Source: Alcanivorax jadensis T9
GTDB lineage: Bacteria > Pseudomonadota > Gammaproteobacteria > Pseudomonadales > Alcanivoracaceae
Length of the DNA stretch: 64,000 nucleotides
Direction: 5' to 3'
Assembly: GCF_000756655.1 (NCBI RefSeq)
Contig: NZ_ARXU01000003.1
Span: 310,001-374,000 of the forward strand
Shown: in pieces, positions 50,869 through 60,129 of the stretch
Position numbering within the stretch: position 1 is the first letter of the stretch
Layout of the letters: the number at the start of each line of letters is the position of its first letter
Notes under the pieces: model-generated
The model's input: only the letters and a program-made list of their open reading frames with translations
Told to the model about the DNA's origin: nothing
Database searches by the model: none
Made by a program: the position numbers and the translations under genes

Positions 50869-52224
50869 ATGACTACCAAGACCCTTACCCGCTGGGGAGC
50901 TGCTGTCATTCTCAGCACTGCCCTGTCGAGCCCTGCTTTCGCTGCCATGGGCAATACGGCCAGCACCTACGGCCTGCTTCCTGCCGATGTGGGCACAGCC
51001 ATGGGCCTATCCATGTTCAACTCCCAGGCGTCGGCGCTCTACTACAACCCGGCCTACCTGACACGAGACCCCCGCGGTGAACTGACAGTTGGCTTGTTGC
51101 ATGGCGATCAAGAATTGCGTGCCGTCAGCCAGGGCAATCCCAACGGTGGCGCGCCATCCGTGATTCGTGATGGTGACGTGCTTAACGACACCATGTCTCA
51201 GCAGCAGGTCATTGCGCTGAAAACCGATCTCACCGACATGACCAAGTTCGAACACCCGATCTACTTCGCGATCATTGCCGGCGTGGAAAAATTTGGTGAG
51301 GAAATGCTGGCGTTTGATTCCAGCACCAACCGGGAAGGCCAATTTTTCAACTACGGCCGACAGCCATTGTTCCTGAATCTCGGTGGCGGCCTCGAACTGG
51401 CCAACGGGATTACCACCGGTGCCTCCGCGCACATTTCCCTGCGTTCTGAAGCGACCTTGATCGCCAGCGCCAACCTGGCCGGTGAAACCCAGCGAGAAGA
51501 GCTGACCGTGTCTGCCAAGCCGGTCATCCGCCCCGTGCTTTCCATGAACCTGGAATGGGACAAGGTTTTCTGCGGTAAGGAAGACTGCGGCATCTGGACC
51601 GGTCTGGAAACCGCCTTTGCATTCCGCGGGCACACCGAGGCCCGCACAGCGGTGGAATCCAATCTGACTATCCCCGGTACCGTTATTGATCCAGGTATCA
51701 CCGTGCTTATTGATACCATCGACTCCTACCAGCCGGATATCTTCAGCGCCGGTCTGCTTTACCACTTCACTGATAATTTCCGGGCTGCCGTCACCGTAGA
51801 ACAGCAGAACTGGAGTGACCTGGAAGATGAGCTGGCCCGCGATACCGTTAAGGACCAGGCTTTTGCTGAGTTCAAGGATATCGTGGTGCCGCGTATTGGT
51901 GCAGAGTGGACGGTGAACGATCATCTGATCCTCTCCGGCGGTGTGGCGTATCAGGAAAGCCCACTGGAAAGCATCCAGACCCCTGACGTGAACTATCTGG
52001 ACAGCGACAAATTGATTGTCGGCGTGGGCTCGTCACTGATTATCAAGAACCCGCCGATCCTCGCTTATCCGCTGCGCCTTGATTTTGGTTACCAGTTCCA
52101 GAAGCTGGAGGAACGGGATTTCGAGTTGACCACCAACCGCCCCGGTGTGACCAACCCCTATGAAGTGGTAACCGCTGATGGCGATGTCCATGTGTTTTCC
52201 GGTGCTATCACGGTGAAGTTCTAA
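50869..52224 (+). CDS. FadL-like outer-membrane beta-barrel protein, module copy 1
   Basis: A 451-residue protein with a signal peptide (residues 1-25, cleaved near AFA) and a mature N-terminus MGNTASTYGLLPADVGTAMG, then SALYYNPAYL, the pattern seen in FadL/OmpP1/TodX transporters, where the N-terminus plugs the barrel. The rest alternates short hydrophobic strands and polar loops and ends in Phe (ITVKF), the signal for barrel assembly. FadL-type channels take up fatty acids and hydrocarbons; the substrate here is unknown. CGGAG precedes the ATG. A large Ig-like lipoprotein gene follows 12 bp later. Confidence 0.75.
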   Translation: MTTKTLTRWGAAVILSTALSSPAFAAMGNTASTYGLLPADVGTAMGLSMFNSQASALYYNPAYLTRDPRGELTVGLLHGDQELRAVSQGNPNGGAPSVIRDGDVLNDTMSQQQVIALKTDLTDMTKFEHPIYFAIIAGVEKFGEEMLAFDSSTNREGQFFNYGRQPLFLNLGGGLELANGITTGASAHISLRSEATLIASANLAGETQREELTVSAKPVIRPVLSMNLEWDKVFCGKEDCGIWTGLETAFAFRGHTEARTAVESNLTIPGTVIDPGITVLIDTIDSYQPDIFSAGLLYHFTDNFRAAVTVEQQNWSDLEDELARDTVKDQAFAEFKDIVVPRIGAEWTVNDHLILSGGVAYQESPLESIQTPDVNYLDSDKLIVGVGSSLIIKNPPILAYPLRLDFGYQFQKLEERDFELTTNRPGVTNPYEVVTADGDVHVFSGAITVKF

Positions 52225-52236
52225 CGGAGGTGTTCC

Positions 52237-57166: not shown

Positions 57167-57180
57167 TTGCGGAGGCAAGC

Positions 57181-60129
57181 ATGATGTTGCGAATATTTTC
57201 CCTGATTGCCGCCGCGTCGCTGCTGGTCGCCTGTGGCGGCGGCAGTGAACAGACGGTGGACTACAGTGCCCGTAAAAAAGGGCAGGTGTATTACAGCTAT
57301 CCGGCGGATGAGCAGACCGGTGTGTCAGTGAATGCGCCGGTGGTGGTGCAGTTTTCCGAGCCGCCGGCGCTGGCCGATCAGGACGTGACCCTGATCGGAC
57401 CGGATGGCCCGGTGGATGTGGTGTTGTCCCGCGCCGACCAAGACCGCTCCCTGGTGGTGACCCCTCAGGCGCCGCTGGCTTTCCAGAGCGATTACCGACT
57501 AGAGCTGGACGGTATGACGCTGGTCGGTTTCAGCGGTGGCGAGCTGGCCTTTACCACCGGCAGCGCCGGAAAGGGCCCGGCCAGCGAGCAGCAGCAGGCA
57601 GATGCCTTCACCGTCAGCCGCTTTTCCCCGTCCGGTGACGACACTCGCCCGTTGATGGATTTCTCCACCCTGCACGTGCAGTTCAGCCAGCCGCTGGATA
57701 CCAGCAGCGTGGAGTACGGCACCACCGTCAGCCTGGAAGATGGCAGTGGCAACCTGGTGGAGGCCAGCGTGCTGGCAGGCAGTAACCGCCTCACGGTGGA
57801 CCCGGCCGACGATCTCCAGCCTGGCCAGAGCTATACCCTGGTTCTCGATGGCGCCTTGAGCAGCCGTTTCGGCACAACCCTGACCGGCAACAGTGAGTTT
57901 GCGGTTAACCCGCAGGACTCCCAGCCCCGTGAAACCCTGGCGCTGGAAGCCATGGCTGCTGACCCGGTGAAAGGCTGTAATGAAGGTGGTGTGACCCTGT
58001 CCCCGCTGACCGGCTCGCCGATCAACTGTGTACCCCTGATTGCCCGTTTGCTGGGCAACACCACGGTGTCGAAACTGTCCGGGGATCTGTTTGCCGACCT
58101 GGCCTTTATCCCCAACTACCCGGACGCTTCGCCGCTGCGGATTCGCAAGGGCGCCTTGCTGAAAGGCGCGCCGCTGGAAGTCTTGATCGGTGGCCAGTTG
58201 CCCGCCGGCTTTGATTCCGGCGAAGTGACGGTGAGCTTCCTCTCCGATGCCACCGGCTACTTGTTGCCGGCCCCCTACAGTGCCCGTCCGGAAGCGCCGC
58301 GCCGCATCATGCTGACCCTGGACCTGGCCTTCTCCACCGCCGATTCTCGTGCCAACGGCGCCTTTACCCAGACCCTGTTGCAAGTGGAGCTGGTGGGCCG
58401 TGCCATCGTTGAAGAGGGGCGCATGGAGATCGATGCCTTGGGCGTGGTGGAGCCGGAAGTGCTCGGTATCGAAACCGCCTTTGGCGTGCTCAGCTTCCAC
58501 ATGGAGTCCTACCTGGATCAGGAAAACGCCCCGGAGCCGCCGGTGGATATCTCCGGCCCCAGCCTGCAAAGCTGGCAGCCGGGCGATTACGCGGATCGTT
58601 TCCGCCCGGGGGATCCCATTGTCCTCAACCTCAGTGAAACTCCGGATCAGGACAGCATTGAAGCCGGCGTCAGTGTCACTCTCACCGACCAGGGGGCGGC
58701 GGTGCCGTTCAACTGGACCCTGGATGGTGCCTCGCTGACCCTCACCCCGAAGCAGCCGCTGGCGTTCGGCCGTGAGTATCAGGTCACCCTCACCGATGGG
58801 GTAGAGGACCTGTACGGCAATCCGGCGTCACCGGAAACCCTGCTGTTCAGCATGCCCGCCTACAGCCCCGATGCACCGCGCACGCCCTACACCATTACCG
58901 TGTATCCGGGCTTCCCCTGTGCTGTGGACCCGGCCAGCCGTGACCTTGCCAATGGCATTCAGGGTCAGTGCGCCAGCGCCTTTCAGAATCAGGCCGGTGA
59001 CCTGCTGCCGGTGGATGCGATGCCTGCCAACCGGCCCATCGAGGTGCAGTTCTCCCAAAATATGGATACCAGCAGCATGGTACTCGGCCAGGCCTGCGGG
59101 GAGGGCAGTGTGCGAGTGGAAAAAATCGACAGTGCTGGCAACTGTCTCGAGGTGGTGCCCGGCTACCTGTCCCGCAACACCCGCTCACTGACGGTGATCC
59201 CTGCCCAGCCCTGGGAAGAGGGCGAGCTTTATCAATATGTGCTTGGCTCCCAGCAAAGCACCGGCTGCGGCCAGGACGTGATCTGCTCGGTGGCCGGCAT
59301 GCCCCTGCAGACTGCCCAGTTGCTGGCCCCGGCGGCGAATGCCGGCGGCCCGGACATGGCCATTGCCTTCACCGGTGCCCCGGCCACCAGTAACGTGTTC
59401 CTGCCACTGCGTAATTTGCCCAAGGCGGATGTGAACGCCAACTTTGAAATCGATGCCGGTGAGCAGAAAGCGGTGGAAGACCCGCCAGGCAGTGGTCAAT
59501 TCCCCACGCCCACCAATGCCGCCTCCCTGTTTGTCACTGGCACTGGTGGTCTGGCCACCGGCGCCAACGTGGGCTGCCCACTCAACCAGAGCTGCCCCGG
59601 GGAGAAGTTCACCTACCTGAACGGCGGCATCAACGCGGACATCGTCGGCTGGAACGAGGACGAGCAGGCGGTGGAAGTGCTGATTTATCAGCCGGTGCTG
59701 ATGACCACCAACAGCAGCGTCTATGCGCAGATTCTCGGCCTGGTGGAGCCGGAAGTGCCCACCGAACCCCTGGTGATGCGCGCCCGCTATGCGGATGACG
59801 GCAACGGCAATCGTACCGAGCCGGTGCGTGGCTTTATCCGTCATGATGGCAATTCGCTGACCTTCGACACCACCCTGGACCTGTTTCTGGATGCCCCGGA
59901 AATGGAAGCGCCGCTGGGGCTGCCGCATAACCTGCACAGCCTGGAGCTAAATGACCTGCAGCTGAACGGCCCGGTGGACTTCCTGGCCGATGGCCGCCTG
60001 GTGATCGGCCTGATCAGTCTCGATGAGCAGGATATTGATGTGCGCATTGGTGGCGCGGCGGCCACCATCGACCTGCAGATCCCTGCAGGTGGCGTCAACC
60101 TGACCTTCCAGAGCGGTTCCATCAAGTAA
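57181..60129 (+). CDS. Large Ig-like lipoprotein, module copy 2
   Basis: A 982-residue paralogue of the lipoprotein at 52237-55479, with a signal ending LLVAC (Cys18). It shares the same domain order: an N-terminal [20 protein letters not shown]g strand, the block [50 protein letters not shown], the repeated [10 protein letters not shown] strands, a calcium-loop-like [14 protein letters not shown] near residue 749, and a [13 protein letters not shown] end. The gene remains fully open although its upstream barrel partner is frameshifted. GGAGG lies 7-8 bp before the ATG, 14 bp after the barrel gene. Confidence 0.75.

Follow-up and report, generated by a model that had tools for sequence, protein, structure and literature searches.

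Two tandem, probable aupAB alkane-uptake operons in Alcanivorax jadensis T9, the second with a frameshifted aupA

The closest described relatives of the two tandem gene pairs considered here (positions 50869-60129 of a 64,000-nucleotide (nt) stretch of Alcanivorax jadensis T9, contig NZ_ARXU01000003.1, the whole of which we call the window) are aupA and aupB, characterised in Marinobacter hydrocarbonoclasticus SP17 (mBio 2018; PMC5989066). There the two genes lie 11 nt apart, form one transcript and are induced on hexadecane; strains with an aup deletion no longer grow on hexadecane supplied in micelles and no longer bind 14C-hexadecane. The two proteins interact in co-immunoprecipitation, and in fractionation AupA is found in the outer membrane, AupB mostly in the inner-membrane fraction, with a small share in the outer one. 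Strains with one aup gene have the other too, with one exception; several pairs occur in 36 strains, up to a maximum of six in two Alcanivorax strains (DG881 among them), and isolated aupB copies are mentioned. AupB is proposed to be a carrier, the way in which long-chain alkanes exit the outer membrane is called unresolved, and the introduction states that FadL alone suffices for its own transport; the words lipoprotein, signal peptide and Ig-like are absent from the main text (all PMC5989066). Proteome data from Marinobacter sp. TT1 show higher levels on hexadecane both of AupA and of an AupB homologue named there as an "Ig-like domain" protein (PMC7822026). We read the pairs in the window, with a probability of about 0.9, as two tandem, anciently diverged aupAB alkane-uptake operons, the second of which has a frameshifted aupA.

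All genes of the two pairs lie on the forward strand, in the same order as in SP17. The first pair consists of an AupA-type barrel of FadL fold (50869..52224; 451 amino acids (aa), with a signal-peptide-like N-terminus) and an AupB-type lipoprotein (52237..55479; 1080 aa, with a lipobox followed by C-G-G-D and with Ig-like Big_5 domains). The second consists of a barrel in two pieces, the 5' one (55800..56135; a stop after 111 aa) holding a signal-peptide-like start and N-terminal part and ending in a frameshift, the 3' one (56081..57166, in another frame; 361 aa) holding the bulk of the barrel, and of a second AupB-type lipoprotein (57181..60129; 982 aa, with a lipobox followed by C-G-G-G). 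The original prediction, made from the letters of the DNA and its open reading frames (ORFs), had described a FadL-like barrel paired tightly, at 12-14 bp, with an Ig-like lipoprotein of about 1000 residues, in two copies with mutual counterparts, and in these points it holds: the gaps are 12 nt in the first pair and 14 nt in the second by the ORF calls, barrel 1 matches Pfam Toluene_X/FadL (5.7e-13), and the lipoproteins match Pfam Big_5 (2.2e-29 for lipoprotein 1, 2.3e-39 for lipoprotein 2) in four stretches each, the further Pfam matches being weak ones to Big_14 and CopC only.

The barrels belong to the AupA family. Barrel 1 matches the NCBIfam model for the alkane uptake protein AupA (NF041571) over positions 14-444 of 444 (E 1.7e-156, 521 bits), and the two pieces of barrel 2 match it at 2.6e-33 (5') and 3.5e-148 (3', 494 bits). 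For the lipoproteins, which no NCBIfam model matched, the route led through genomes with an AupA above the curated equivalog cut-off of that model (840 bits), of which an even draw of the order held 12 in 390: a match to our AupB alignment directly adjoins this AupA in 12/12 by coordinates, and the five loci fetched confirmed it. One of these AupBs can be aligned with lipoprotein 1 from end to end (478 bits; 33% of 1154 columns identical), the reference being a Marinobacter-like sequence (L154) and not the AupB of SP17 itself; the genomes concerned (f20/g27) are termed Marinobacter-like by their AupA score and by their tree position beside Marinobacter nitratireducens (L079). Both proteins of the pair are end-to-end homologous to Marinobacter-like pairs. 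The named top relatives of lipoprotein 1 (74-84% identity) are Alcanivorax or Alcanivoracaceae records, the one at 84% lying within an array of pairs in Alcanivorax sp. DG881 (L023, L049).

The model of barrel 1 (predicted local distance difference test (pLDDT) 78.4) finds FadL homologues as its top Foldseek matches, the best being 3dwo (E 3.9e-18, template-modelling (TM) score 0.59/0.60), so that the barrel shares both fold and Pfam family with FadL/TodX channels and differs from them in having a dedicated lipoprotein partner. The model of lipoprotein 1 (pLDDT 86.5, predicted TM score 0.84) is mostly beta, with low confidence in residues 1-34 and parts of 902-947; among the best 50 of its 83 fold matches (E <=0.001), which are mainly to Ig-like and other multi-domain beta proteins, none covers the whole chain (TM <=0.12 by query length), and a profile search with AupB brought up no solved relative beyond short matches to Ig-like or other domains. 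In Vibrio cholerae, volA sits beside a fadL gene. VolA, a membrane-associated extracellular protein, feeds FadL transporters (PMC12208996) and offers a further parallel; it is a lipase, however, while neither lipoprotein matched a lipase or hydrolase domain at E <=1 in Pfam or NCBIfam, and a lipoprotein of the VolA type is rejected.

The association of barrel and lipoprotein as a unit extends well beyond the window. Seventy-two named loci contain 93 AupB frames, 90 of them testable (three lie at a locus edge), and 83 of the 90 directly follow an AupA, at gaps of 9-75 nt and mostly of 10-12; one AupA split over two frames (L054) is included in this count. In the order draw (n=390), 76 genomes have some AupA match, 45 at E <=1e-80 and the other 31 at E of at least 3e-8, the latter being generic FadL similarity; all 45 genomes with a strong AupA also have an AupB at E <=1e-30. 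The draw of the family gives, at E 0.001, AupA in 44/46 genomes and AupB in 45/46. In the order-level alignment searches no more than two candidates per genome, the best ones, were scored (no more than four on the AupA side), so that copy numbers from them are lower bounds. Barrels that mostly go without the lipoprotein, one of the two findings by which the original prediction would have been refuted, were not seen in the order draw.

The anchor of the lipoproteins bears on where they act. After removal of one edge-cut, spurious match (L049, frame 2-2659), 95 of 96 distinct AupB frames of at least 850 aa remain, all with complete starts; a lipobox is present in 95/95 and Gly at position +2 in 92/95, the exceptions being Asp (L160 and L161) and Ser (L162). 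Both lipoproteins of the window have G-G after the lipobox Cys, and the six AupBs from Marinobacter or Marinobacter-like genomes (L079, L154-L158) have LLAAC followed by GG; a slightly wider pattern finds a lipobox in 46/815 other long ORFs and in 2/109 AupA. By the sorting rule of E. coli, a +2 residue other than Asp directs a lipoprotein to the outer membrane. As the residue is mostly Gly, AupB is predicted to be anchored there. This prediction, which goes beyond the text of PMC5989066, could hold together with the published fractionation if the long protein, anchored in the outer membrane, touched the inner one.

The +2 Gly anchor and the tight pairing would also fit a surface system in which the lipoprotein lies outside the cell and covers the barrel like a lid or serves it as a receptor. 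SusCD consists of a barrel and a lipoprotein encoded in tandem, and a candidate undescribed outer-membrane system of this logic had been proposed in the original prediction. We regard this as unlikely. The two families already form the published AupAB system (PMC5989066), so that the novelty proposed for the locus falls away; the barrel is FadL-like by both Pfam and Foldseek and not TonB-dependent, no SusD is found among the best 50 of the 83 fold matches of lipoprotein 1, which removes the locus from SusCD proper, and the Marinobacter AupB fractionates mostly with the inner membrane, which does not point to a surface lid.

Several observations weigh against reading the pairs as aupAB alkane-uptake operons. 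Both barrels stay below the AupA cut-off (barrel 1 with 521 bits, barrel 2 with 494 bits in its 3' piece), as do all barrels in the family draw (0/46 genomes reach 840 bits), so that they are treated as homologues of AupA, whose functional equivalence we infer rather than certify. Seven of the 90 testable AupB frames lack an upstream AupA (L034, L037, L050, L052, L055, L056, L087). The predicted outer-membrane location of AupB is in tension with the inner-membrane fraction reported from Marinobacter. Finally, no alkane gene was recognised among the flanking genes tested, which comprise a solute-binding protein (47756-48790) and a permease (48794-50383) of an ATP-binding cassette (ABC) transporter upstream, FAD-binding proteins, and glycine-cleavage genes from 60243 onward downstream.

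The scores and the flanks also lend some weight to the possibility that these copies, of the same families, import fatty acids, wax esters or other hydrophobic compounds in place of alkanes, as does the mere 41-52% identity between the paralogues. We consider this unlikely: Marinobacter aup mutants are affected in growth on alkanes and form normal biofilms on hexadecanol, palmitic acid, a wax ester and tripalmitin, aup genes are nearly confined to genera of hydrocarbon degraders (both PMC5989066), and a third intact aupAB pair of the same genome, on contig C9 (L012:8920-10278 for aupA, 10283-13393 for aupB), is clustered with a cytochrome P450 of CYP153 type. This P450 matches the structure 8b2p ("Cytochrome P450 alkane hydroxylase") at 953 bits and CYP153A7 at 467 bits, and the regulator of the cluster (L012:509-17835) exceeds the NCBIfam cut-off for CypR. 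The genome thereby has an alkane hydroxylase gene, in addition to 13 matches at the level of the FA_desaturase family. Two further frames of the cluster on C9 resemble FAD monooxygenases by eye, and another two resemble short-chain dehydrogenases. An alkane substrate, at which the original prediction had hinted, is thus judged likely for the copies in the window, and it is probable that the several pairs of the genome accept different ranges of substrates or are regulated differently.

The two aupAB pairs of the window are not recent duplicates. Lipoproteins 1 and 2 are 41% identical over 1103 columns (704 bits), and the pieces of barrel 2 are 54% (5', over 90 columns) and 52% (3', over 360 columns) identical to barrel 1, so that the copies are homologous. 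In a tree of 63 hand-chosen rows, built by a quick method with L087, L185, L186 and near-copies omitted and long branches flagged (among them L161, beside the OmpW-paired clade described below), the two lipoproteins fall into separate supported clades, each with counterparts in relatives, and lipoprotein 2 is found at the same place in these; the duplication is therefore old and a recent one is ruled out. The same tree unites the AupBs without upstream AupA of L050, L052 and L055 in one clade and those of L034 and L037 in another; that of L056, which has an AupA downstream, stands apart. At the position of the array, the nearest relative (G016, locus L174) carries three pairs. Window 47001-50381 corresponds to L174 bases 353-3730 at 95% identity, and from window 50458 onward the correspondence resumes at L174 base 8463; one pair of about 4.7 kb (L174:3730-8463) is thus missing from the window. 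By coordinates, G007 has four pairs, and G003 and G015 have three each. The window is one more AupAB array that shows signs of turnover, with a missing pair and a broken barrel.

By eye, the break in barrel 2, between the frames 55800-56135 and 56081-57166, falls on a short direct repeat some 280 nt into the gene; the original prediction was right that both pairs are real and had taken this barrel as intact. In relatives the gene is open as a single frame, for example at L174:13757-15169, in a locus with 90% DNA identity to the second pair of the window. As there is no more than a short repeat and the gene is read through without a break in relatives, a programmed or phase-variable frameshift is rejected, and the break is treated as either a real mutation or an assembly error. 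Whether the whole second copy is decaying, with its barrel ended by the frameshift and lipoprotein 2 orphaned or using another barrel, we regard as evenly balanced. The intact frame in relatives, the absence of one entire pair that the nearest relative has, and the existence of other AupB genes without upstream AupA speak for decay; lipoprotein 2, however, is fully open, its frame of 1000 aa equalling those of 1000-1001 aa in G016, G003, G011 and G015, and the frameshift could stem from the assembly of this 3.63-Mb genome, which is 99.99% complete in 29 contigs (the window being part of contig C3).

Terminator-like hairpins frame the first pair. One, with a T run, follows lipoprotein 1 (55506..55526, forward strand; eight pairs, seven of them G-C, TATTTTTTCT tail), by which the two pairs would be separate transcription units; a terminator-like site after the first aupB and several copies per genome are further likenesses to AupAB. 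Another hairpin, 5' of barrel 1 (50572..50589, forward strand; seven pairs, all G-C), belongs to the upstream unit. The region has 13 such sites, against 8.0 (standard deviation 2.7) in shuffles, and hairpins are weak evidence by themselves; a sigma-70 scan of the region gave two sites, against 3.6 in shuffles. What separates the locus from the SP17 system is the AupA scores below the cut-off, the 33% identity of lipoprotein 1 to the L154 AupB, and the broken barrel 2.

A fourth AupB-type lipoprotein of the source genome, P0008 on contig C17 (L013:5948-9301), shows the family with a different partner. It is 24% identical to AupB over 1152 columns (E 1e-37), aligns with it profile to profile over 943 columns (E 1.1e-99) and is by these comparisons a genuine relative. 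Its partner lies downstream, with an overlap of 4 nt, and is a barrel of the OmpW family, not AupA (P0009, L013:9298-10170; PF03922 3.2e-16), which matches the OmpW structure 2f1t at 3.5e-6 and the AlkL structure 6qam only at 0.0068. OmpW/AlkL barrels, also tied to hydrophobe uptake, are of a family other than AupA and absent from the pairs of the window; here they follow a divergent AupB clade. All 34 places of this kind that were examined (all 28 from a search of the family at E <=1e-190 and all six that the order search added in a second family, f29) have the OmpW barrel downstream of the lipoprotein, so that the module spans the Alcanivoracaceae and one further family. Three of the 34 are damaged: the OmpW gene is in two frames in G015 (L127), the lipoprotein has an internal stop in G005 (L133), and in G014 (C11:33647-42035; L138, L208, L213) the lipoprotein is split, some 5 kb lying between its pieces as an insertion would leave them, and the OmpW gene follows the second. 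No AupA was found in the flanks of these places (mostly 1.5 kb), nor any relative of P0009 in the 72 named AupB loci.

In the tree, the 16 OmpW-paired rows lie on one side of a branch with support 100, and the partner labels require one change, against a mean of 14.4 when shuffled. The anchor differs in this clade: 20 of 24 distinct lipoproteins pass the lipobox pattern, the other four having a Cys past the hydrophobic run by eye, and the +2 residue is mostly Glu (13), with Gly in five and Asp in two. In the order draw, a match to the profile of these lipoproteins at E 1e-60 occurs in 18/390 genomes, four of which (G028, G029, G119, G300) owe it to AupA-paired lipoproteins only, leaving 14; two genomes with AupB-type lipoproteins and no strong AupA (G213, G271) have them paired with OmpW. 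A draw of the class finds an OmpW-linked lipoprotein in 1/369 genomes, the source genome itself, and as no other genome of the Alcanivoracaceae is among the matches listed, this count speaks only to rarity in other families. In one genus of the family (g4; G031-G037), each genome has 4-7 matches for AupA, against 9-17 for AupB with fragments included; some of these lipoproteins are OmpW-paired tandems (L167, L178). No account of an AupB-OmpW module was found in the publications searched; the isolated aupB copies of the 2018 paper may include OmpW-linked ones.

The aupAB reading would most likely entail the following path. At the outer membrane, AupA would pick up alkanes that arrive in micelles or lie on the surface of oil and, judging by the FadL fold, may release them sideways into that membrane. 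The long AupB lipoprotein with its several Ig-like domains, which would be bound to AupA if the interaction found in Marinobacter applies here, would help the alkane to leave this membrane on its way to the hydroxylase of the inner one, as the authors of the 2018 study propose (PMC5989066); we favour an AupB anchored in the outer membrane, facing the periplasm and reaching toward the inner membrane. What the present analysis adds to the published system is the frameshift in barrel 2, the tension over the lipobox, and the OmpW-partnered branch, a possible partner swap that lies elsewhere in the source genome, outside the window, and goes beyond the text of PMC5989066. With two barrel partners for one lipoprotein family, the features that the AupA-linked and OmpW-linked members share should mark the job of the lipoprotein. 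The sequences themselves show the families, the adjacency, the lipobox and the partner clade; the substrate of the copies in the window, the direction in which AupB points and the function of the OmpW-linked branch are inferred. On balance, we lean to the view that AupB is a general helper of outer-membrane hydrophobe channels that underwent one change of partner, and that it is anchored in the outer membrane and reaches into the periplasm instead of belonging to the inner membrane.

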